IMG/VR virus record: IMGVR_UViG_3300018428_003547
Coordinates: 1 to 40,194 of that record
Source: a virus
Length of the DNA stretch: 40,194 nucleotides
Direction: 5' to 3' (one strand)
Position numbers and translations under genes: made by a program. This document shows, in pieces, positions 1-40,194 of the stretch. The notes under the pieces are model-generated. The model made no database searches. It was given only the letters and a program-made list of their open reading frames with translations, and was not told where the DNA came from. Position 1 is the first letter of the stretch, and each line of letters starts with the position of its first letter.

Positions 1-338
1 AAACTCTCTCCTATCAAATAGGATTCTATATTACTTCCATAACCATCGTGTACATATAATCTAACTAATTCAAATACCGCTGTTCTCGGTACTGCTAATG
101 ATATCGAAGCGCCTGAGTTCCTACCTATTGGGTCTCCATAACATATAGCCCCAATTAATTTCTCTTCAGGTTCGTCAAAAAAAGAGTGTTCTCTACCCGT
201 TGTGGTAAACAAACCTAAAGCGTGAGTACACTTTGTCCATTGATGTGAATAATGATTCTCAACGATTAGTTTTTTAGCAATCTTCCTATCTATTTCTCTG
301 ACAGATAGTTTAGACGTATCTACATATTTTTTATTCAC
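1..338 (-). CDS. Mom-like DNA adenine modification protein, partial (C-terminus beyond window)
   Basis: The N-terminal 112 or so residues are present and the gene runs off the left edge. It begins MNKKYVDTSKLSVREID and closely follows the complete Mom-like protein at 35772-36539: both share a KYVD start, an NHYS motif, FF.EPEEKL.G, a CYG.P.GR block and HDGYG.NIES. Mom of phage Mu is a GNAT-fold enzyme that changes adenine to a carbamoylmethyl form and so blocks restriction. The Asp/Tyr catalytic region would lie past the edge, so activity cannot be judged. The start is a GTG that overlaps the TGA of the upstream gene by 4 nt, with GAGGAA just before it. No in-frame ATG fits near this N-terminus. 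Confidence 0.82.
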   Translation of the reverse strand, partial: MNKKYVDTSKLSVREIDRKIAKKLIVENHYSHQWTKCTHALGLFTTTGREHSFFDEPEEKLIGAICYGDPIGRNSGASISLAVPRTAVFELVRLYVHDGYGSNIESYLIGES

Positions 339-30941: not shown

Positions 30942-31341
30942 AATCATTCCTCTTTTGTTTTTTTGGTTTTTCTGATGTACAAAATTTAGCACACTTATGA
31001 AATTCTTCTAAACCTTCTAAAAGACTTTCCTCTTTACTATAAGTATATTGAAATCTAACTTGATTACCACTCATATCATATTTATTTGTTAAATCGAACC
31101 AAATAAAATCATTCGGTTTTAAGTAATCGCCCACTTTCATTGTTGTTTTAAAATGTAAATCAGATTCATACTTTAACATAAAATCTTTTAAATCTTTTGG
31201 CTTCAAAGCACCTTCTTCATACCACAAAATTAAATAAAATTTAATATTATCTTTATGAACAACATTTAACTTTTCTATAACATCTTTCTCAAAAGGTTTG
31301 TTTATAAAATGGGATAAGTTCATTCTTAGATTTACTTTCAT
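30919..31341 (-). CDS. hypothetical protein (140 aa)
   Basis: A soluble 140-aa protein starting MKVNLRMNLSHFINKPFEKD. It has KFYLILWYEEGALKPKDLKDFM and FKTTMKVGDYLKPNDFIWFDLTNKYD, and a charged tail with KKQKRNDYESSD. No family is recognised. It follows the nuclease with a 1-nt overlap and overlaps the SLOG protein by 23 nt, so it belongs to the same message. Confidence 0.7.
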   Translation of the reverse strand: MKVNLRMNLSHFINKPFEKDVIEKLNVVHKDNIKFYLILWYEEGALKPKDLKDFMLKYESDLHFKTTMKVGDYLKPNDFIWFDLTNKYDMSGNQVRFQYTYSKEESLLEGLEEFHKCAKFCTSEKPKKQKRNDYESSDSR

Positions 31342-32207
31342 TACTTCACTCCTGCGTCACAATATTCTGTCTGATTAAAATCACAAAACCTGCAATTCTT
31401 TTTAGATGCTTCTTTTCTATAAATATGTTCAGTATTATATTCTCCATCAGAAGTAAAGCATTCTGTCATAAACTCCGATAGTCTTTTTGTCACCTGATTA
31501 ATTGATGGTGTACCATTTGCTGGTGTAAACTTTTGAACTCTCTTCTGAGGAAAGTCTAAGTTCTCATACAGCTTTCTCTTTACGATAAAATACTCCACCT
31601 CAATCTTATCCATTGGATGATTGAATTGTTTAGAGTAAAATTGTTTGTACAACAGCAGTTGGTCTGTCTTTATTTTATCAGCCTTTTGCCATTTGTTCCA
31701 ACCCATAGTAGAAGTCTTTATATCATATATCTTTATTACATCCCTTACAGTATCTCTAATTACAACATCTATGTAACCGATAAACTTTACACCATTTGGT
31801 AAATCGTACTCTAATGGAACTTCGATACCAACCAACTCATATCCCTTCTTACTAAAGTATTGTGCTCTTTTCTTTTTTATAAAATCTAAGATGAGTAATC
31901 CGTGTTCGTAAAATTCTACCATATCTCTTTGAGTACAAAATTCTTCTCCACCATTCTTTACCATAGCTTCTTCGTAATTTCTTTTCATTCTTATTCTTAA
32001 CATTTCTTCTAATGGTAGAGCTTCTGCAGCTTTAGCAGTATCTTCATACATAACAGTTAAGAAAGCTTGAATAACTTCGTGCATTGATGTCCCGAACAGA
32101 GTGTGTATACTCTCTTTAAACTCTCTTTTGTCGTCTATGTATGCAGTTTTCCATCTATGTGGACATTGAGCCCACATTGAATATTGACTATAACTTATCT
32201 TTTTCAT
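31341..32207 (-). CDS. PD-(D/E)XK nuclease with Fe-S cluster (RecB/AddB/Cas4-type)
   Basis: A 288-aa nuclease. SQYSMWAQCPHRWK is the usual start of PDDEXK_1 proteins; FGTSMHEVIQ holds His43, the strand around EVPLEYD an acid, GYIDVVI Asp147, and IYDIKTST Asp162/Lys164. Cysteines at 15, 272, 275 and 283 form the one-plus-three pattern of the 4Fe-4S cluster in AddB and Cas4. It would cut or process DNA ends in phage recombination or replication. It follows a 45-aa gene by a TAATG overlap. Confidence 0.88.
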   Translation of the reverse strand: MKKISYSQYSMWAQCPHRWKTAYIDDKREFKESIHTLFGTSMHEVIQAFLTVMYEDTAKAAEALPLEEMLRIRMKRNYEEAMVKNGGEEFCTQRDMVEFYEHGLLILDFIKKKRAQYFSKKGYELVGIEVPLEYDLPNGVKFIGYIDVVIRDTVRDVIKIYDIKTSTMGWNKWQKADKIKTDQLLLYKQFYSKQFNHPMDKIEVEYFIVKRKLYENLDFPQKRVQKFTPANGTPSINQVTKRLSEFMTECFTSDGEYNTEHIYRKEASKKNCRFCDFNQTEYCDAGVK

Positions 32208-32749: not shown

Positions 32750-32779
32750 AATATACACACTTTTATGTATACAAGTCAA
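32750..32779 (-). promoter_or_regulatory. sigma70-like promoter
   Basis: Minus strand TTGACT (32779-32774), an 18-nt spacer, then TATATT (32755-32750). The Nmad1 start codon follows at 32727. The -35 box lies in the last codons of the Mom-like gene upstream. The AAAAAAGCTTGACTT context repeats almost exactly before the polymerase gene (39864-39880). Confidence 0.68.
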
Positions 32780-33395
32780 GCTTTTTTATTTGTCTTTTAA
32801 TTCTTTTGTTAAGATAGTAAACATAAATATGCTTTGGTTCTGTGTTCTTCCAAAATATATTTTCGTCACCAGCTTTATATCTACGATTAAGTTCTCTACC
32901 ATATGGTCTATCTAATTGATTTAGAGAGCGACTGTGCATCTCTTTTCCATCCACCATCAAAACTCTACCCCTTGCAGTTTCTCCTAAGTATTCAAAGTTA
33001 GTAGCTTTGTATATTACACCTGTGTGTCCGTGGTGTTGGTCGGCAAAAGAAACTACAACTTCCATATCTGTATCTCTTTTCAACATTTTAAATGTCTGTC
33101 CTATGAAATAACTTTCTGTATTCTTAGGCGTATCATCTATACAAACTAATCTTCTAAGTTCTAAACACTTAGTTGGATTGATTGGATTGTATTTAGCAGC
33201 TGTTGCTGGCATTGATGGATAAGCATACATCATAGCCCCAATCATTTTAGGTAAACCAAAGTTACCTTCTGTGTATAAACCATAATGATATAAAGATTGT
33301 ACACCATTTACATTATGTGAATAATGGTGCTTTTCAATAAATTTTACAATAGACTTTCTACTAACTTGTTCTACTGTAAAGTCCGTTACGCTCAT
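32763..33395 (-). CDS. Mom-like DNA modification protein (210 aa)
   Basis: A complete 210-aa Mom-type protein. KHHYSHNVN (22-30) is the NHYS region, LELRRLVCIDD corresponds to the LELTRLFIHD strand of the longer paralogue, and SFADQHHGHTGVIYKATNFEYLG (116-138) is the signature block with Asp119 and Tyr129. These are ten apart, as I recall for the Mu Mom Asp139/Tyr149 pair. It ends with a basic helix KRIKRQIKKLD. It starts in an ATGA overlap with the gp62-like gene. It probably modifies DNA adenine, but a different nucleotide target is possible. Confidence 0.84.
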   Translation of the reverse strand: MSVTDFTVEQVSRKSIVKFIEKHHYSHNVNGVQSLYHYGLYTEGNFGLPKMIGAMMYAYPSMPATAAKYNPINPTKCLELRRLVCIDDTPKNTESYFIGQTFKMLKRDTDMEVVVSFADQHHGHTGVIYKATNFEYLGETARGRVLMVDGKEMHSRSLNQLDRPYGRELNRRYKAGDENIFWKNTEPKHIYVYYLNKRIKRQIKKLDLYT

Positions 33396-33841
33396 AATCC
33401 AATCTTACGGCACTCATCCTCTGTTTTACCATACTTCATTAGTATGTCTGTCAATTCTGATTGTCCACCAGCTGACAACTCAAACATATCTACAGCATCA
33501 CCAGCTTCTCTAATACTACATTGTAGATGTTTAGATACTATTTCATAAACCCATTTAGGATACTTCATTTTTTTATCTCCTTTAATATATTTCAACCATT
33601 GTTTTTTCTTTGGCAATATATCAATGTAAACTTTGTACAACTCTCTTGGTTGAAGTGGATACTTTTGAACTTCATTTACAAAATCAATCCACTCAGGTTT
33701 CATAGATAAGAATCTATTTATCATATAATTAGACCAAGACTTTTTATCATCATCTGAAATTTCATCCCAATAATTAGGATGTTGCTGACTAGTTACAGCA
33801 TTTACGTGGTCGAATAAACTTTTCTTTTTAATTTTCGCCAT
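33392..33841 (-). CDS. clamp-loader small subunit (gp62-like)
   Basis: A 149-aa helical protein. SWSNYMINRFLSMKPEWIDFVNEVQKYP resembles the T4 gp62 block Y..FMVENALSQFPE, and PKKKQWLKYIKGDKK resembles PRGKRYGKWAK. The position two genes after the clamp-loader ATPase agrees. gp62 forms a complex with gp44 that opens the gp45 clamp on DNA. It overlaps the Zn-ribbon gene by 14 nt. It is shorter than T4 gp62 (187 aa), as in marine relatives. Confidence 0.78.
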   Translation of the reverse strand: MAKIKKKSLFDHVNAVTSQQHPNYWDEISDDDKKSWSNYMINRFLSMKPEWIDFVNEVQKYPLQPRELYKVYIDILPKKKQWLKYIKGDKKMKYPKWVYEIVSKHLQCSIREAGDAVDMFELSAGGQSELTDILMKYGKTEDECRKIGL

Positions 33842-34085: not shown

Positions 34086-34849
34086 TTAATATCCTCCGAA
34101 TTTATTATTGAAACTCCACTTTTCTTTACAACTGCTGTAGCAGCTTTTAAAGCATATTCTATAGCTCTATCTATTTTATTTGTTTTTAGGTATTCTGTAA
34201 CTAAAGCAGCCATAAAGGTATCTCCAGCGCCCGATACATCTCCACCAGTAACATTTTCTGTTGTGTAATGTTTATTATTGAATCTACAACCTCTACCACC
34301 TAAAGTAACTATAGTCTTTGTATCGTACCAACTAGTACTACCGAAGTTCCTTAATTGTTTCCACTCAATTTCATTTATTTTTATATATGAGCATTCGCTC
34401 ATATAGTGTTCAATCTGCTTTTTAGTATCTATAAAGACATTTGTGTTGTTCTGACAAAGGTATGCGATATCATCTTCTTCTAAAAAACCTTTGTTGTAAT
34501 CTGCAATTATCAAAGCATCAAACTCAAATCCATCGTAGTTATTGTTTCTTACACTGTATAGTATATCTTTTTCAACTCTATCACAACTATCATTATCATC
34601 AACTCTTAAAAGCAATTGATTAGAGCGTTCATCAACATATCTTGTTTTAGTTATGATATTTTCATTAGTAATCCACTTTACTTCGTTTCCTAAAGATTGT
34701 AAATTAGTTACCACATTCATAGCCATTCCGTTGTTACCCTTTTCCCAATCTTTTTTTAACACTGGTACAGGTCCTTCAGGACATATTCTATCTACAGCGC
34801 CGTAAATAAACACATCTCTACAACTATCCCCTATAACTACTACTCTCAC
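34082..34849 (-). CDS. PfkB-family kinase, HldE-kinase-like
   Basis: A 255-aa ribokinase-fold protein that matches the HldE kinase domain: VVVIGDSCRDVFIYGAVDRICPEGPVPV (2-30), NGMAMNVVTNLQSLG (40-54), TKTRYVDERSNQLLLRVD, ADYNKGFL, and VTGGDVSGAGDTF (200-212) with the catalytic Asp210. HldE kinase phosphorylates heptose 7-phosphate at C1. About 60 residues shorter than E. coli's kinase domain. It sits inside the replisome operon between gp44 and gp62, 11 kb from the HldD-like gene. Another sugar kinase role cannot be excluded. Confidence 0.82.
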   Translation of the reverse strand: MRVVVIGDSCRDVFIYGAVDRICPEGPVPVLKKDWEKGNNGMAMNVVTNLQSLGNEVKWITNENIITKTRYVDERSNQLLLRVDDNDSCDRVEKDILYSVRNNNYDGFEFDALIIADYNKGFLEEDDIAYLCQNNTNVFIDTKKQIEHYMSECSYIKINEIEWKQLRNFGSTSWYDTKTIVTLGGRGCRFNNKHYTTENVTGGDVSGAGDTFMAALVTEYLKTNKIDRAIEYALKAATAVVKKSGVSIINSEDIK

Positions 34850-35784
34850 TTTATTATTCCTAATAACTCTATCATCATAGCCATAACATTTATTTCTTTG
34901 TCTACAACCTGTGCGTCTGATAACTGATATTTAGCAATAGTCAATATACAATCTGCTACATGACCTTTACCATAATCATCAACTTCATCATATAACAATC
35001 TGAATACATCAGCGAAGTCCGATATCTGATTATCACCTAACATTTTTCTTATGGTTACGAAAGCATCTTTCTTACTCTGTGTCTTCAATACATTTACAAC
35101 TTGCGTAGAAAAAACATTCACATTTAAATCAACTGCTACTAAGTTGTTTTGGTCTATCGATAGTTTACCATCAACCACCTGTCTTTGAGCAAAGTTTATC
35201 ACTCTACGAATATCTGGATAACCACCATTGACTAATGTAGCTACATCATCTACTTCAGATTCAACACTTTCTTTCTTTAGTATATCACTAAGATGTACAG
35301 CAACTTCTTTTCGAGATGGTGGAACTATCTGAAATGGTTGGCAACGACTTTGTATAGGATCGATAATCCTCTCTACATAATTACAAGTTAAAATAAATCG
35401 AGTGTGTTTAGAGAAAGTCTCCATAAGATTACGAAGAGCCGCTTGTGCATTTGGTGTGATGTAATCACACTCATCTAATATAACAACTTTCATATCTTTG
35501 AATCCGATAGTGGAAGCGAATCCTCTAACCTTATTACGAACAACATCAACACTATTTTCATCTGAAGCGTTAATGTATAGATAATCACACTCTATATTGT
35601 TAACGAGTAGTTTAGCGAGAGTGGTCTTACCTGTACCAGCCCTTCCATATAGTAAAAGGTGTGGTAAGTCTCCACTCTCTAAATACACCTTAACCTTACT
35701 TTTTAGATGTTCATTTCCAATGTAAGATTCAAGTGAATTAGGGCGGTACTTTTCAACCCAAAGGGTATTTTTTATTTCTTCCAT
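34846..35784 (-). CDS. clamp-loader ATPase large subunit (gp44-like)
   Basis: A 312-aa AAA+ protein. LWVEKYRPNSLESYIG start, Walker A GRAGTGKTT (47-55), Walker B VVILDECD (100-107), and the arginine finger SRC (146-148). The C-terminal collar domain is complete. It corresponds to T4 gp44 (319 aa) and RFC-type loaders. It loads the gp45-like clamp at primer-template ends. It overlaps the Mom-like gene upstream by 13 nt. Confidence 0.95.
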   Translation of the reverse strand: MEEIKNTLWVEKYRPNSLESYIGNEHLKSKVKVYLESGDLPHLLLYGRAGTGKTTLAKLLVNNIECDYLYINASDENSVDVVRNKVRGFASTIGFKDMKVVILDECDYITPNAQAALRNLMETFSKHTRFILTCNYVERIIDPIQSRCQPFQIVPPSRKEVAVHLSDILKKESVESEVDDVATLVNGGYPDIRRVINFAQRQVVDGKLSIDQNNLVAVDLNVNVFSTQVVNVLKTQSKKDAFVTIRKMLGDNQISDFADVFRLLYDEVDDYGKGHVADCILTIAKYQLSDAQVVDKEINVMAMMIELLGIIK

Positions 35785-36539
35785 TTTTCGTTATCAACCT
35801 CTATTTTTCTTATTTCTATATCGTGTTTGTAATTTTTAGGATACTTCATTTCAGGATGTTTCATAACACTACGAAACTTTCTGTTCTCTTTTTTATTACC
35901 GAGAAAATAAATGTATCTATGTTTACTAGCCTCTTTCTTCAACCAAAAATCGTGTCCGATAGACTTAACCATCTTCTTTGGGTCAGCTGAACCAAAGCGA
36001 GAGTAAACAGTTCGACTATGTATCCATTCCCCACCCTCTTCTAATCTTAGAGAGTAGGTTGGTGCTAACTGAAAGTCTCCACAACCTTGATATATCCAGT
36101 TAGTAGCCTGATAGATAGCACCATCATGCGATTGTTCGGGATCAGCATAAGATATCAAAACCTTTATATTTGGTGCATTTTCTTTCAACCATTTGAAAGT
36201 CAATCCCAATGCCAAAGACTCAATGTTTTTTCCATATCCATCGTGGATGAAGAGTCTCGTAAGCTCTAATATGTTTCTGTTCTCTAATATTTCTTCAGAG
36301 AATATAGAACCGAGAACTCTTCTTCCAACTGGAAAACCATAACAAGCTACACCTACTAGCTTTTCTTCTGGTTCAGAAAAAAACTTATGTTCATTATCTG
36401 TTTGATAAAATATACCAATCGGATAACGACACGAAGATAATCTTCCGCTATAATGATTTTTCTCTATTATATCTTTAGCCAATGGTTTATGTATTGGTCT
36501 AACAGATACTCTAGATTTATCTACATACTTTTCTTCCAT
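35772..36539 (-). CDS. Mom-like DNA modification protein (255 aa)
   Basis: A complete 255-aa Mom-type protein. NHYSGRLSSC (28-37), EPEEKLVGVACYGFPVGRR (56-74), LELTRLFIHDGYGKNIESL (91-109), and SYADPEQSHDGAIYQATNW (130-148) with Asp133 and Tyr143 spaced by ten. The C-terminal extension of 55 residues is basic (KKENRKFRSVMKHPEMKYPK). Mom proteins use an acyl-CoA-type GNAT fold to modify adenine. It lies exactly between clamp and clamp loader, with overlaps at both ends, so it is expressed with replication genes. It is a near paralogue of the gene at 1-338. Confidence 0.88.
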   Translation of the reverse strand: MEEKYVDKSRVSVRPIHKPLAKDIIEKNHYSGRLSSCRYPIGIFYQTDNEHKFFSEPEEKLVGVACYGFPVGRRVLGSIFSEEILENRNILELTRLFIHDGYGKNIESLALGLTFKWLKENAPNIKVLISYADPEQSHDGAIYQATNWIYQGCGDFQLAPTYSLRLEEGGEWIHSRTVYSRFGSADPKKMVKSIGHDFWLKKEASKHRYIYFLGNKKENRKFRSVMKHPEMKYPKNYKHDIEIRKIEVDNEKWKK

Positions 36540-37255
36540 TACACATCTTGTTCAGCAACTAAGTAATATGTAGCGTCATACTCATCAACTTTAAAATTGA
36601 TTCTAGCGAGACCATCTGAACTTACTTCTAATGTAGCGCCCTCACATTCTTTATTAGCAACTAACACATCTCTGAAAAGATTAGCGTTGAAAGAAACATG
36701 CTCAATCTTATCGTAAGATTCTGTCTCTACAGGAAGAGTGACACGATTAGTGTTTATCTCAGCATAACCAATCACAACCTTTACACCATCATCATCAGTT
36801 ATTACTGTAAAGTTATCTGTATCTGCAAGAGCACTTTTACCTGCTATAAACTTTTGCATAAATGATTTATCAACTTTAATCTTAACTTCAAAATCTGGAA
36901 TAGATTTTAGATTAGGTGGAGAACTAATAACAGATAAATCTGAAAGCATATAGTTAACATCAGAATTACTATCTGATATTTTTAGAGATACTGCTTTATC
37001 TCCAGCTTTTGTAAGATTCATACTTATATTCTCTGATAGAACTGAAAGTAACTTTACAAGCTGTTCTGTATTGTAAACACCTAAGTCAGCTGCATCAAAC
37101 TTCCAACCTGTCATAGTCAATTCTCCAAGTAGATTCTTATCACCAGTTATAAAACGAGTTGAAAGATTCTCTCCATCACTCTTTAATACAACCGATGAAC
37201 AATTTCCGCTAAGATAATACTTATCTATAAAACGGCTCAATGAGTGTTTGTTCAT
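36539..37255 (-). CDS. sliding clamp (gp45-like)
   Basis: A 238-aa processivity clamp. There is no short motif, but length (T4 gp45 is 228 aa), position between polymerase and clamp loader, and the two-domain pattern fit: FIDKYYLSGNCSSVVLKSDG, then LKSIPDFEVKIKVDKSFMQKFIAGKSALADTDNF in the linker, and EYDATYYLVAEQDV at the end. It would ring DNA as a trimer and hold the polymerase. AAGGAG lies 5 nt before the start, and the element at 37282-37296 is 26 nt upstream. Confidence 0.86.
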   Translation of the reverse strand: MNKHSLSRFIDKYYLSGNCSSVVLKSDGENLSTRFITGDKNLLGELTMTGWKFDAADLGVYNTEQLVKLLSVLSENISMNLTKAGDKAVSLKISDSNSDVNYMLSDLSVISSPPNLKSIPDFEVKIKVDKSFMQKFIAGKSALADTDNFTVITDDDGVKVVIGYAEINTNRVTLPVETESYDKIEHVSFNANLFRDVLVANKECEGATLEVSSDGLARINFKVDEYDATYYLVAEQDV

Positions 37256-37315: not shown

Positions 37316-39811
37316 TCAAAAAAATCTTTCCATTGATGTCTTTTTATTTACAGGCTCATTCCATTTCAATGTGTCGTAGAACATCATTATTTTTTTCTCT
37401 AACATCTGAGCGTACATCTTTTTATAATCTATATTCTTCTTTATGAAATCTATTATCTGTGGTGGGTCCTCATAACCTTTGTAACCACAAGACTCTAGTC
37501 CTAATTCATTTTGTCTTAGGTAAACCCATTTAATCTTTTCTGAGTTGCTTATCTTTTCGTATTTTTTACCAACTCCAAAGTGTCTAAGCAAATCATTGTA
37601 AGTTATAGCAGCTTTTATATGAGCTGGTGCACCTTTAGCAAACTTTGTAAACTTACCCGCTTTACCATCTGAGTATTTCTTTAGGTTGTTAATGCCAGTT
37701 GGCATAGCTATTCTATCAAAATCTACTAATTTCATAGACTCTTTAAAATTTATTATTCTTTCGTCTATCTTTTCTTTTGGTACTGTAGCCAATATATCTT
37801 CTAACACATTTTTCAATAACTCACCCATAGCTTTTGGAAAGTTACTACGAACCAAATCCAAACCTTTAACATGCAGTTTGTTTACCTTTACTCCATTGTC
37901 ATTGATAATCTTCATACCATATCGTTTCTTTACAATGAACAAACCTGACTTAGCTATCAATTCCTGCTTTATTTCAAATCTATGTTTATCCAAATTCAGA
38001 AACTTCTTACCAAAGTAATCGTAAGACTTATTTAAAAATCCCTGCATTTCATCAGCTACATCCAATATCCTCTTACTCATCATAGTCTCACTATCATAAT
38101 CCATATTAGGAAATCTCTTTTTCACTATAGGAAGAGCTGAATAGAATACCGAATCGGTATCGATGTAAATACAATAGTCTTTTGTATCACCCAATTCTTT
38201 ATTGTAAAAGTGATTACCAATCTTTTTAGTAAACTTAATTAGTTCTTGACCTGTAAGTGTGGTAGCCTCAGCATTATCTAAGTCATAAAATCGAAATACT
38301 GGCAAACCTAACACACCATATAAAGAATTTAAAACCACTTTCTGAATTAATTGTCGGCTTTTGAAATATGTATATTTTTCATTATCTCCAGCGTCACCGA
38401 ACTTCTTCATCAACTTTCTATACTCCACACGAGTATCGAACCACTTTTCTAATAGGGCTGGAATCAATCCTTTCTTATCACTACGATATAATACACCATT
38501 AGAAGATACTGAAACTTTATTGTTATCAAAGAAATCTTTCAGTTCTGTTTCACTAAGTTTGCCCATCTCTTTTTCGCCTGCTATCAAAGTATAAGTCTTT
38601 TTGTCTCCTCTAATAAACTCCTCTGAATCCCAACCTATTATCTTACCCATTTTAGTTTCAGGTGACACATTCAAAGACATAATAACAGATGGATACATAG
38701 AGGTAATATCTAAATCAAATACCCAATCGTGCTTTCCTCTTTGTGGTGGTTGTACATAAGCACCAGCAAACTTTTCATCGTTATTCATATTTGGTTTAGT
38801 TGGTTTGTTTGGTGCGATAATACCTAAGTTTTTTAGGTATACTAATATAGCACCCTCTAAATAACGAGAAGAAAAGTAAACATCTTCATAAGGTACATGC
38901 CCTACGTGACAAACACCTCTAGCCATATCTATTAAATCTAATTTGTCGTGTAACCTTTTAACCAGTCTAACATCGTGTATATTATATTCTACAAATTTGT
39001 TTATGTTGTTCTCATATAAATCATTGAGAGTGCCGGTATACTCTACTTTCTTCTCACTAAGTTCGTGTTCGGCTACAGCGTCTAATCTGTAAGATGATAA
39101 TTGTGTATAAGTAAATAGTTTGTATAATGCCAAATAGTCTAAACAACTAACACCAGCAAACATAAATCTTTTGCGATGTTTATTCCATTTGACTTCTCTT
39201 ATAGGAGATATTAAATTAGCTATATCTGAACCAACTACCTTACAAGCTCTGTTGTAAAGGTAAGGCATATCAAATGTATCAGAGTTCCAACCAGTTATTA
39301 TTGTTGGTTTCCAATCTAAATATTTTAAATAAAATCTTTGTAGTAAATCAAACTCATTATCAAAAGATTCGATAATCACATTATCTTTTGATTGTAGAGT
39401 AAGTTTCTTTTTATCATCTAACACTAAACAATAGTATTCATCTTCCTCTGAATTGTGGATAGCTATAGCAGTTATCTTATCATTAGCATCTTCTGGATAT
39501 GGGAATCCATCTGTAACCTCAACCTCAATATCAATTGTCATAATACGATGACCAGTTGACATCTCTTCTGAATCAGTATATTGGTCTACTAATATACGAG
39601 TTTCGGGAGGAACATCTGATTCAAATAAGTTTGGCATATCAGGTTCAAATCGATAAACCTTTCTAAGTTTATCTCCATATAAAGATATATGTGTTCCAGC
39701 TCTGTCTTTTACATAAGCATATTTTTTGTAAGGAAGAGTATAGTAACCATTCTCATCATCCCATATATGAAACAACTGCTTTTTATTATCGAAGTAAACA
39801 TTTTGATACAT
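37316..39811 (-). CDS. family B DNA polymerase (gp43-like)
   Basis: An 831-aa replicative polymerase. The 3'-5' exonuclease has TIDIEVE (Asp94, Glu96), GWNSDTFDMPYL (174-185) and YNIHD (276-280). The polymerase has DLDITSMYPS (366-375), KVVLNSLYG (491-499) and YIDTDS (549-554). All catalytic acids are in place, so both activities are expected. T4 gp43 has 898 residues. It is the first gene after the promoter at 39844-39872 and heads the replisome order 43-45-44-62. Confidence 0.96.
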   Translation of the reverse strand: MYQNVYFDNKKQLFHIWDDENGYYTLPYKKYAYVKDRAGTHISLYGDKLRKVYRFEPDMPNLFESDVPPETRILVDQYTDSEEMSTGHRIMTIDIEVEVTDGFPYPEDANDKITAIAIHNSEEDEYYCLVLDDKKKLTLQSKDNVIIESFDNEFDLLQRFYLKYLDWKPTIITGWNSDTFDMPYLYNRACKVVGSDIANLISPIREVKWNKHRKRFMFAGVSCLDYLALYKLFTYTQLSSYRLDAVAEHELSEKKVEYTGTLNDLYENNINKFVEYNIHDVRLVKRLHDKLDLIDMARGVCHVGHVPYEDVYFSSRYLEGAILVYLKNLGIIAPNKPTKPNMNNDEKFAGAYVQPPQRGKHDWVFDLDITSMYPSVIMSLNVSPETKMGKIIGWDSEEFIRGDKKTYTLIAGEKEMGKLSETELKDFFDNNKVSVSSNGVLYRSDKKGLIPALLEKWFDTRVEYRKLMKKFGDAGDNEKYTYFKSRQLIQKVVLNSLYGVLGLPVFRFYDLDNAEATTLTGQELIKFTKKIGNHFYNKELGDTKDYCIYIDTDSVFYSALPIVKKRFPNMDYDSETMMSKRILDVADEMQGFLNKSYDYFGKKFLNLDKHRFEIKQELIAKSGLFIVKKRYGMKIINDNGVKVNKLHVKGLDLVRSNFPKAMGELLKNVLEDILATVPKEKIDERIINFKESMKLVDFDRIAMPTGINNLKKYSDGKAGKFTKFAKGAPAHIKAAITYNDLLRHFGVGKKYEKISNSEKIKWVYLRQNELGLESCGYKGYEDPPQIIDFIKKNIDYKKMYAQMLEKKIMMFYDTLKWNEPVNKKTSMERFF

Positions 39812-39843: not shown

Positions 39844-39872
39844 AAGTTAAGAAGAATAACAATTAAAGTCAA
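39844..39872 (-). promoter_or_regulatory. sigma70-like promoter for the polymerase gene
   Basis: Minus strand TTGACT (39872-39867), 17-nt spacer, TAACTT (39849-39844). The -10 box is weak, but the AAAGCTTGACTT context matches the promoter at 32750-32779. It lies right after the terminator of the upstream receptor gene and 33 nt before the polymerase start at 39811. Confidence 0.6.
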
Positions 39873-39885
39873 GCTTTTTTTTTGG

Positions 39886-39911
39886 AAAAAATGGGGGGAA
39901 ATTTTCCCCCC
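39886..39911 (-). terminator. rho-independent terminator
   Basis: Minus strand: six G, AAAATTT, six C, then A and six T. The stem has 6 GC pairs and 2 AT pairs with a 3-nt loop, followed by a T run. It starts 12 nt after the TAA of the TonB-receptor gene and ends the transcript before the polymerase promoter. It is the only strong intrinsic terminator noticed in the window. Confidence 0.88.
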
Positions 39912-39922
39912 AAATTCACCTT

Positions 39923-40194
39923 TTAGAAATTGACAGATAGTCCTAAGTTGAAACTTCTTGGTGTACCCAAAAAGACTTCAGCGTTATGAGCAGCGTGAAC
40001 TTTGTCACCATACCCATTGTATTGACTATTGTCTACTGCATCTTGAACATAAACATTATCAAGAGCATTAAATATATGACCACTAAGTGTCATATCTAAA
40101 CCAGCGATTTCTGGTAGTTTGTAAGATAGATGTAAGTCTAACTTACCATAAGATGGAGATTTCCAAACTTGTGCTCTGTCAGCATCACCATCAA
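39923..40194 (-). CDS. TonB-dependent receptor, C-terminal end (partial)
   Basis: The last 89 or so residues of a beta-barrel. SYGKLDLHLSYKLPEIAGL is the penultimate strand of TonB-dependent receptors, IFNALDNVYVQDAVDN the usual turn, and AEVFLGTPRSFNLGLSVNF the final strand, ending in the terminal Phe needed for outer-membrane insertion by BAM. The N-terminal signal, plug and most of the barrel lie past the right edge. Such receptors import siderophores, vitamins or glycans. Base composition and codon use look like the neighbouring phage genes. Its presence next to a phage replisome is unexpected. Confidence 0.88.
   Translation of the reverse strand, partial: DGDADRAQVWKSPSYGKLDLHLSYKLPEIAGLDMTLSGHIFNALDNVYVQDAVDNSQYNGYGDKVHAAHNAEVFLGTPRSFNLGLSVNF

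Follow-up and report, generated by a model that had tools for sequence, protein, structure and literature searches.

The window, that is, the whole stretch of DNA analyzed here, is a complete IMG/VR fragment of 40,194 bases; relatives supplied the sequence beyond its right edge. At this edge lies the 3' end of a gene for a TonB-dependent receptor (39923..40194, minus strand), cut by the end of the contig. The open reading frame (39923-40192) leaves the window 89 codons in; the C-terminus, ...LGTPRSFNLGLSVNF, and the end of the reading frame, ...PRSFNLGLSVNF, are each given up to the stop codon. By itself, the 89-residue piece is too short to be recognized by any receptor model of Pfam or PHROG. 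It matches the end of the full-length, 909-residue receptor encoded in IMG/VR contig 3300023178_002147 (L002) at 99% identity, which bears out the initial annotation of this edge as the C-terminal piece of a receptor ending in phenylalanine.

An intrinsic terminator (39892..39912, minus strand) lies 3' of the receptor gene and consists of a 9-bp GC-rich stem (39912-39892) followed by T6. It is represented by five overlapping hits, compared with 0.5 +/- 0.7 in shuffled sequence. Next is the promoter of the polymerase gene (39844..39872, minus strand), in which TTGACT (39872-39867) and TAACTT (39849-39844) are separated by 17 nt. The terminator stem and the TTGACTT / -10 promoter that follows it are kept in aligned relatives, where the promoter columns read TTGACTT and TATATT. 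The gene behind the promoter encodes a family-B (gp43-like) DNA polymerase (37316..39811, minus strand; phrog_262, E 3.8e-185). Further replication genes follow on the same strand: a sliding clamp (gp45-like; 36539..37255; phrog_223, E 6e-14), the large (gp44-like; 34846..35784; phrog_168, E 2e-82) and small (gp62-like; 33392..33841; phrog_225, E 4e-14) subunits of the clamp loader, and an exonuclease (31341..32207; phrog_69, E 2e-25). The terminator, the promoter, the polymerase and the T4-like replisome beside the receptor had all been proposed from the letters alone, and the searches and alignments agree with each of them.

A Mom-like DNA modification protein is encoded at 35772..36539 (minus strand; phrog_1384, E 2e-48). 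It is one of two Mom-like genes assigned by PHROGs in the window, the other being at 32763-33395 (minus strand); a partial frame at the left edge (3-338, minus strand) is possibly a third, by a resemblance seen by eye. A long series of apparently glycan-related genes, mostly read by eye, occupies positions 1711-30086 of the minus strand. The series includes epimerases, glycosyltransferases, and carbamoyltransferase-like, sulfotransferase-like and methyltransferase-like proteins; one glycosyltransferase was confirmed by PHROGs. Many of these genes have homologues in a colinear 164.8-kb relative. Given its glycan-related genes, the window's phage may remodel the surface of its host.

The receptor is carried by a marine T4-like lineage

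Scanning viral contigs with the 89-residue piece yielded 315 stretches encoding relatives, of which the best 80 were kept. Since these 80 loci were chosen by receptor similarity, average conservation of receptor versus polymerase is biased in this set; the pairwise argument for gene exchange made below is unaffected. Presence of the receptor was counted only in contigs picked by their polymerase and with enough upstream sequence (n=41), and the receptor is found upstream of polB in 39 of them. On the coding strand, the gene order in relatives is gp32, UvsX, 5'-3' exonuclease, DnaB-like helicase, ribonucleotide reductase (RNR), receptor, polB, clamp, (Mom) and clamp loader. The receptor gene sits between polB and an adenosylcobalamin-dependent (class II) RNR, which scores above the cut-off of the RTPR model. 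Dozens of contigs, assembled from different metagenomes, share this receptor-polymerase junction.

One relative, a contig of 164,845 bases, is colinear with much of the window and shares the whole replisome side, its polymerase being 92% identical. Genes for the gp23 capsid and a terminase accompany the complete receptor on this single molecule; the structural genes expected beyond the window's edge if the receptor is phage-borne are present in relatives. With homologues of the gp23-type capsid, the gp17-type terminase, gp43/44/45/62, UvsX and gp32, the lineage belongs to the T4-like phages.

The gene is not indispensable, as two of the 41 polymerase-sampled contigs, L100 and L115, lack it. 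L100 has a clean empty site at the receptor position. In L115 (4400-4562), the tail of the RNR gene runs directly into the final receptor codons, either a deletion allele or an assembly join. The receptor is mostly absent from more distant relatives of the polymerase. Some distant relatives (L255, L262, L301 and L308) have a different frame, of 345-397 residues, between RNR and polymerase.

Judged from these contigs, the receptor is phage-borne, placed between a class II RNR gene and the DNA polymerase gene, and near-constant in a marine T4-like lineage. The initial annotation had considered that a phage carries a host receptor, and this reading is upheld by the recurrent junction, the phage genes on both sides, and the presence of gp23 and terminase on one contig. 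An assembly chimera, or a phage-derived element ending at a host junction in a chromosome, has a negligible probability and is refuted by the presence of the receptor in 39 of 41 contigs, by an identical junction in dozens of independent contigs, by capsid and terminase genes on the same long contigs, and by the empty-site allele of L100. The earlier statement that such receptors are not standard in T4-like phages is right for the phages in GenBank and wrong for the present lineage: the receptors retrieved by searches of viral folds and of full-length GenBank phage proteins are all dissimilar, reaching about 30% identity at most. Our search of an open-access library of the literature found no report of this phage-borne receptor.

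Domains and predicted structure of the receptor

Full-length relatives are about 910 residues long and comprise a putative signal peptide, a CarbopepD_reg_2 domain, a plug, a barrel and a terminal Phe. In L015, a close full-length homologue, the Pfam models Plug and CarbopepD_reg_2 both score above their cut-offs (Plug, PF07715, which falls outside the window: E 6.7e-13, 49.5 bits against a cut-off of 23.9). The N-terminus is basic, followed by a hydrophobic helix at residues 4-18, and looks like a signal peptide by eye. A conserved segment, EVLASRA, lies between the regulatory domain and the plug, and its position fits that of the presumed TonB box. All 115 readable viral copies end in Phe, in keeping with the C-terminal aromatic residue of TonB-dependent transporters.

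An AlphaFold model computed from 66 diverse sequence rows has a mean pLDDT of 84.5; an earlier set of 20 close phage copies gave 46. In a Foldseek search, the model matches Fiu and PqqU with an E of 1e-35, consistent with a beta-barrel closed by a plug. The matching folds are Fiu, PqqU, YncD, FhuA, FecA and BtuB, all at 11-14% identity, with Fiu, PqqU and FhuA the closest. The protein falls outside the SusC/RagA class: TIGR04056 scores 55.7 bits against a cut-off of 368, and the neighboring genes are RNR and polymerase, with no SusD partner.

Host origin, selection and exchange

The closest cellular proteins all come from Fidelibacterota (Marinimicrobia, SAR406). They are full-length orthologs, 60-67% identical to the phage receptor, and nine of ten host genomes have one strong copy (G027 has two). 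A 78-protein tree nests the phage copies in Fidelibacterota, with the main set of 42 forming one clade (SH-aLRT 100). The nearest cellular branch to this clade is L137, a 4.3-kb contig of a Fidelibacterota MAG, which branches between the main phage clade and a more divergent phage copy, L252. On the L137 contig, the receptor is followed by the start of a second receptor, 46% identical. Alignment to marine bacterial receptors had been suggested earlier as a way to identify the host; the tree places the origin of the receptor in a Marinimicrobia (Fidelibacterota) host. Judging from the gene tree only, these phages most likely infect Marinimicrobia (SAR406). A search for the phage polymerase in 245 Fidelibacterota genomes found nothing close, the only matches being three at 32-35% identity.

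None of the 68 full-length phage copies contains a stop or a frameshift, and the median dN/dS of the receptor is 0.13, indicative of purifying selection. By these sequence measures the phage receptor is host-derived, intact and under selection and, lying in a phage context, it has the sequence hallmarks of an auxiliary metabolic gene, a class whose activity would raise phage production.

The receptor has also moved between divergent phages, because in some pairs a low receptor pS (0.20-0.30) accompanies a saturated polymerase pS (0.66-0.73). For L007 and L042 the values are 0.20 and 0.72, and for L015 and L059 they are 0.26 and 0.66. Receptor distances correlate with those of the RNR (Mantel 0.61), less with those of the polymerase (0.28) and not with those of the clamp (-0.13). 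The idea that RNR and receptor form an inseparable cassette proved only partly true, as some pairs swapped one alone: L044 and L047 have an RNR pS of 0.02 and a receptor pS of 0.49. The RNR genes of these two phages are nearly identical despite saturated polymerase divergence, a sign of recent RNR exchange.

A pseudoknot precedes the receptor gene

The spacer between the RNR and receptor genes contains a nearly invariant sequence, GCGGACAGGCAGACGACACACCTGTAGAAAAATGTGTC. This leader element corresponds to a 38-nt H-type pseudoknot, with helices ACAGG/CCUGU and GACACA/UGUGUC and an A-rich third loop. Across an alignment of 31 distinct sequences, 98.5% of the pair cells are standard. Four of the 11 pairs are changed on both sides (ATAGG/CCTAT, GCAGG/CCTGC, GGCACA/TGTGCC and GACGCA/TGCGTC), with compensatory changes in both helices. 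The pairing score was reached by none of 500 shuffles, and slid versions of the pairing collapse. The predicted fold is supported by this covariation, and its form is that of the conserved folded aptamer expected in the 5' leader of a riboswitch.

Scanning viral sequence with the 22-base core of the pseudoknot gave 60 stretches, 58 of which are new loci. In all 58 the pseudoknot occurs with the receptor; the start codon is 66-70 nt downstream in 56, and the remaining two contigs break off shortly after the start of a matching receptor. The pseudoknot stays with the receptor even in six loci where another gene separates it from the RNR. Each of two long phage contigs contains a single copy.

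Compared with Rfam at E values up to 10, the phage leader returned nothing credible and no described riboswitch class. A pseudoknot that precedes the phage receptor and matches no Rfam family is new here. The host receptor loci gave no Rfam match at the gathering cut-off. A covariance model of the pseudoknot, applied with strict filters to 245 Fidelibacterota genomes and to 42 cellular loci, did not find it convincingly; the hits were weak, partial or atypical, and we judged them to be chance matches.

A similar layout is known from the translational operator of T4 gene 32, in which a small H-type pseudoknot stands before a leader of looser structure that contains the ribosome-binding site (PMC535899). 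Both elements belong to T4-like phages. The present pseudoknot differs in preceding a receptor gene, and the motif was not seen by eye in those leaders of gene 32 that were read for these phages.

The Shine-Dalgarno sequence is predicted to pair with the 3' part of the pseudoknot with a mean of 0.27, versus 0.07 in controls (0 of 40), but the value is high in only about one third of the leaders. This alternative pairing is suggestive, and only suggestive, of two mutually exclusive states. It is possible, if on the doubtful side, that the pseudoknot represents a new class of metabolite-sensing RNA in phages, one that switches the synthesis of an outer-membrane importer during infection. If so, the virus would tune the uptake of replication precursors to the state of the infected cell through a pseudoknot RNA.

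Neighbors of the cellular orthologs

We clustered the genes surrounding 80 cellular homologues. The commonest neighbor is a secreted type I phosphodiesterase/nucleotide pyrophosphatase (PF01663). Among 39 loci with enough sequence from FCB phyla other than Marinimicrobia, it lies directly downstream on the same strand in 13 and within 6 kb in 15. As the host genomes searched contain 2 to 7 PF01663-family matches each, this adjacency is far beyond chance. The PF01663 gene comes right after the receptor in L183, L191, L197, L207 and other FCB loci, in one case together with a PhoD-like phosphatase. The Marinimicrobia loci have PF01663 within 6 kb in just 1 of 23. In one Marinimicrobia locus, PF01663 lies upstream together with an S1/P1 nuclease; one more locus has an S1/P1 nuclease, and in two a deoxynucleoside kinase is encoded within 1.5 kb. 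The window and the two long phage contigs contain no such phosphodiesterase, nuclease or kinase.

The receptor and PF01663 enzyme of FCB bacteria possibly constitute an unrecognized unit for uptake of nucleotides or organophosphates. PF01663 enzymes also accept non-nucleotide substrates. With PF01663 beside relatives in other FCB phyla, and RNR and polymerase as neighbors in the phages, a nucleotide or organophosphate is the best guess for the substrate. We tentatively propose that extracellular nucleic acid is the source, in the form of nucleotides, nucleosides or other phosphate esters.

Discussion

That a large group of ocean viruses keeps a complete, strongly conserved receptor copy amid its replication genes suggests that the virus makes infected cells take in something it needs. 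We infer that the phage receptor is an importer active in infected cells. Taken as a whole, the data make it reasonably probable that this intact, host-derived transporter, controlled by a pseudoknot, imports a scarce substrate, perhaps of the nucleotide class, for synthesis of the phage genome. The receptor would most likely be made early in infection, together with the replication genes, and its translation would probably be set by the H-type pseudoknot that lies 66-70 nt before the start codon. Placed in the host outer membrane and energized by the host's TonB, it would bring in a compound in short supply and so aid phage genome synthesis. Imported nucleotides, nucleosides or phosphate esters would feed the dNTP pool used by the RNR and the polymerase. 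Uptake, a decoy and exclusion had each been offered at the outset as the purpose of such a gene, and the evidence leans towards uptake.

A receptor acting as a surface decoy or in superinfection exclusion would replace or titrate the host's own version, shutting out competing phages that use it or keeping released virions from sticking to debris. Phages commonly adsorb to TonB-dependent receptors, the fold matches include FhuA with T5 pb5, and the many glycan-active genes of the window's phage may remodel the host surface. However, an arms race predicts fast-changing loops, whereas the long loops of the phage receptors (conservation 0.83) are almost as conserved as the barrel strands (0.85) and more so than the loops of the Marinimicrobia receptors (0.58); the plug reaches 0.95. 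Such a pattern is easier to reconcile with retention of a ligand than with a rapidly evolving decoy. The phage copies also retain the plug, along with the linker that contains the presumed TonB box; a pure decoy would need neither. The gene is located among replication genes. We consider a decoy or exclusion role unlikely.

The adjacent adenosylcobalamin-dependent RNR raises the idea that the receptor supplies it with B12. The receptor gene comes directly after the class II RNR, its distances correlate best with those of the RNR, and Wu et al. (2023; PMC10547690) suggested that B12 uptake might be raised by viruses that have RNRs of this kind. A B12 receptor is nevertheless disfavored, because the cobalamin riboswitch of the host controls a different receptor. 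This riboswitch is present in 7 of 10 Marinimicrobia genomes and, in the loci read, lies upstream of a receptor of 664-705 residues, which matches the phage receptor at best at 22% over 172 residues. In L238-L244, the riboswitch is followed by a BtuB-like receptor and, in most, by a BtuG-like protein (weak DUF5074 match). Orthology to BtuB was rejected: the phage receptor shares with BtuB/BtuG of Bacteroidota TonB-dependent transport across the outer membrane, and adjoins a B12-dependent RNR, but is not an ortholog of the host's riboswitch-linked receptor. Furthermore, no Rfam riboswitch lies near 10 cellular orthologs or in the phage leader, and RNR and receptor were exchanged separately in some pairs, such as L044 and L047. 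Cobalamin import is improbable on these grounds.

We hold import of iron or another metal chelate, the function of most characterized TonB-dependent receptors, to be similarly improbable. The nearest solved folds are the siderophore receptors Fiu, FhuA and FecA, along with PqqU and YncD, but fold matches of this kind, at 11-14% identity, are seen throughout the superfamily. Among NCBIfam models, a haemoglobin/transferrin receptor scores best, though far below its cut-off. In the neighbor clusters, read by eye, genes for siderophores, haem or metals do not recur next to the cellular orthologs.

A precedent for the uptake reading comes from the marine megaphage Mar_Mega_1 and from LR745206, where a TonB-dependent receptor annotated as SusC was proposed to raise uptake in infection (PMC9723777). 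The present gene differs in being lineage-wide within a T4-like replisome, in its traced host origin and in having its own RNA leader. The two are different receptors: the sole whole-length viral fold match to our model is BFVD A0A8D9FQQ5, at 13% identity, which we presume to be the SusC of Mar_Mega_1/LR745206. A closer counterpart is the single-copy receptor of Fidelibacterota and other FCB bacteria (CarbopepD_reg_2 and Plug), a full-length ortholog with 60-67% identity in its closest Fidelibacterota copies. Unlike the phage gene, the cellular copies have no pseudoknot leader, and PF01663 follows them in 13 of 39 loci of other phyla. The phage receptor resembles the nutrient-uptake auxiliary metabolic genes of phages, for example those for phosphorus acquisition, in being a host-derived transport gene under purifying selection. 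Here, in contrast, the product is an active transporter of the outer membrane, encoded among the core replication genes of a single lineage.

Marinimicrobia are abundant bacteria, most of them uncultured, and descriptions of their phages are few. The finding bears on what a receptor conserved across FCB phyla transports, on how lytic phages obtain precursors beyond the host's own pool, and on phage control of host-derived genes by small structured RNAs. A selected, lineage-wide viral gene of this kind should alter outer-membrane import of the infected cell, rather than its internal metabolism.
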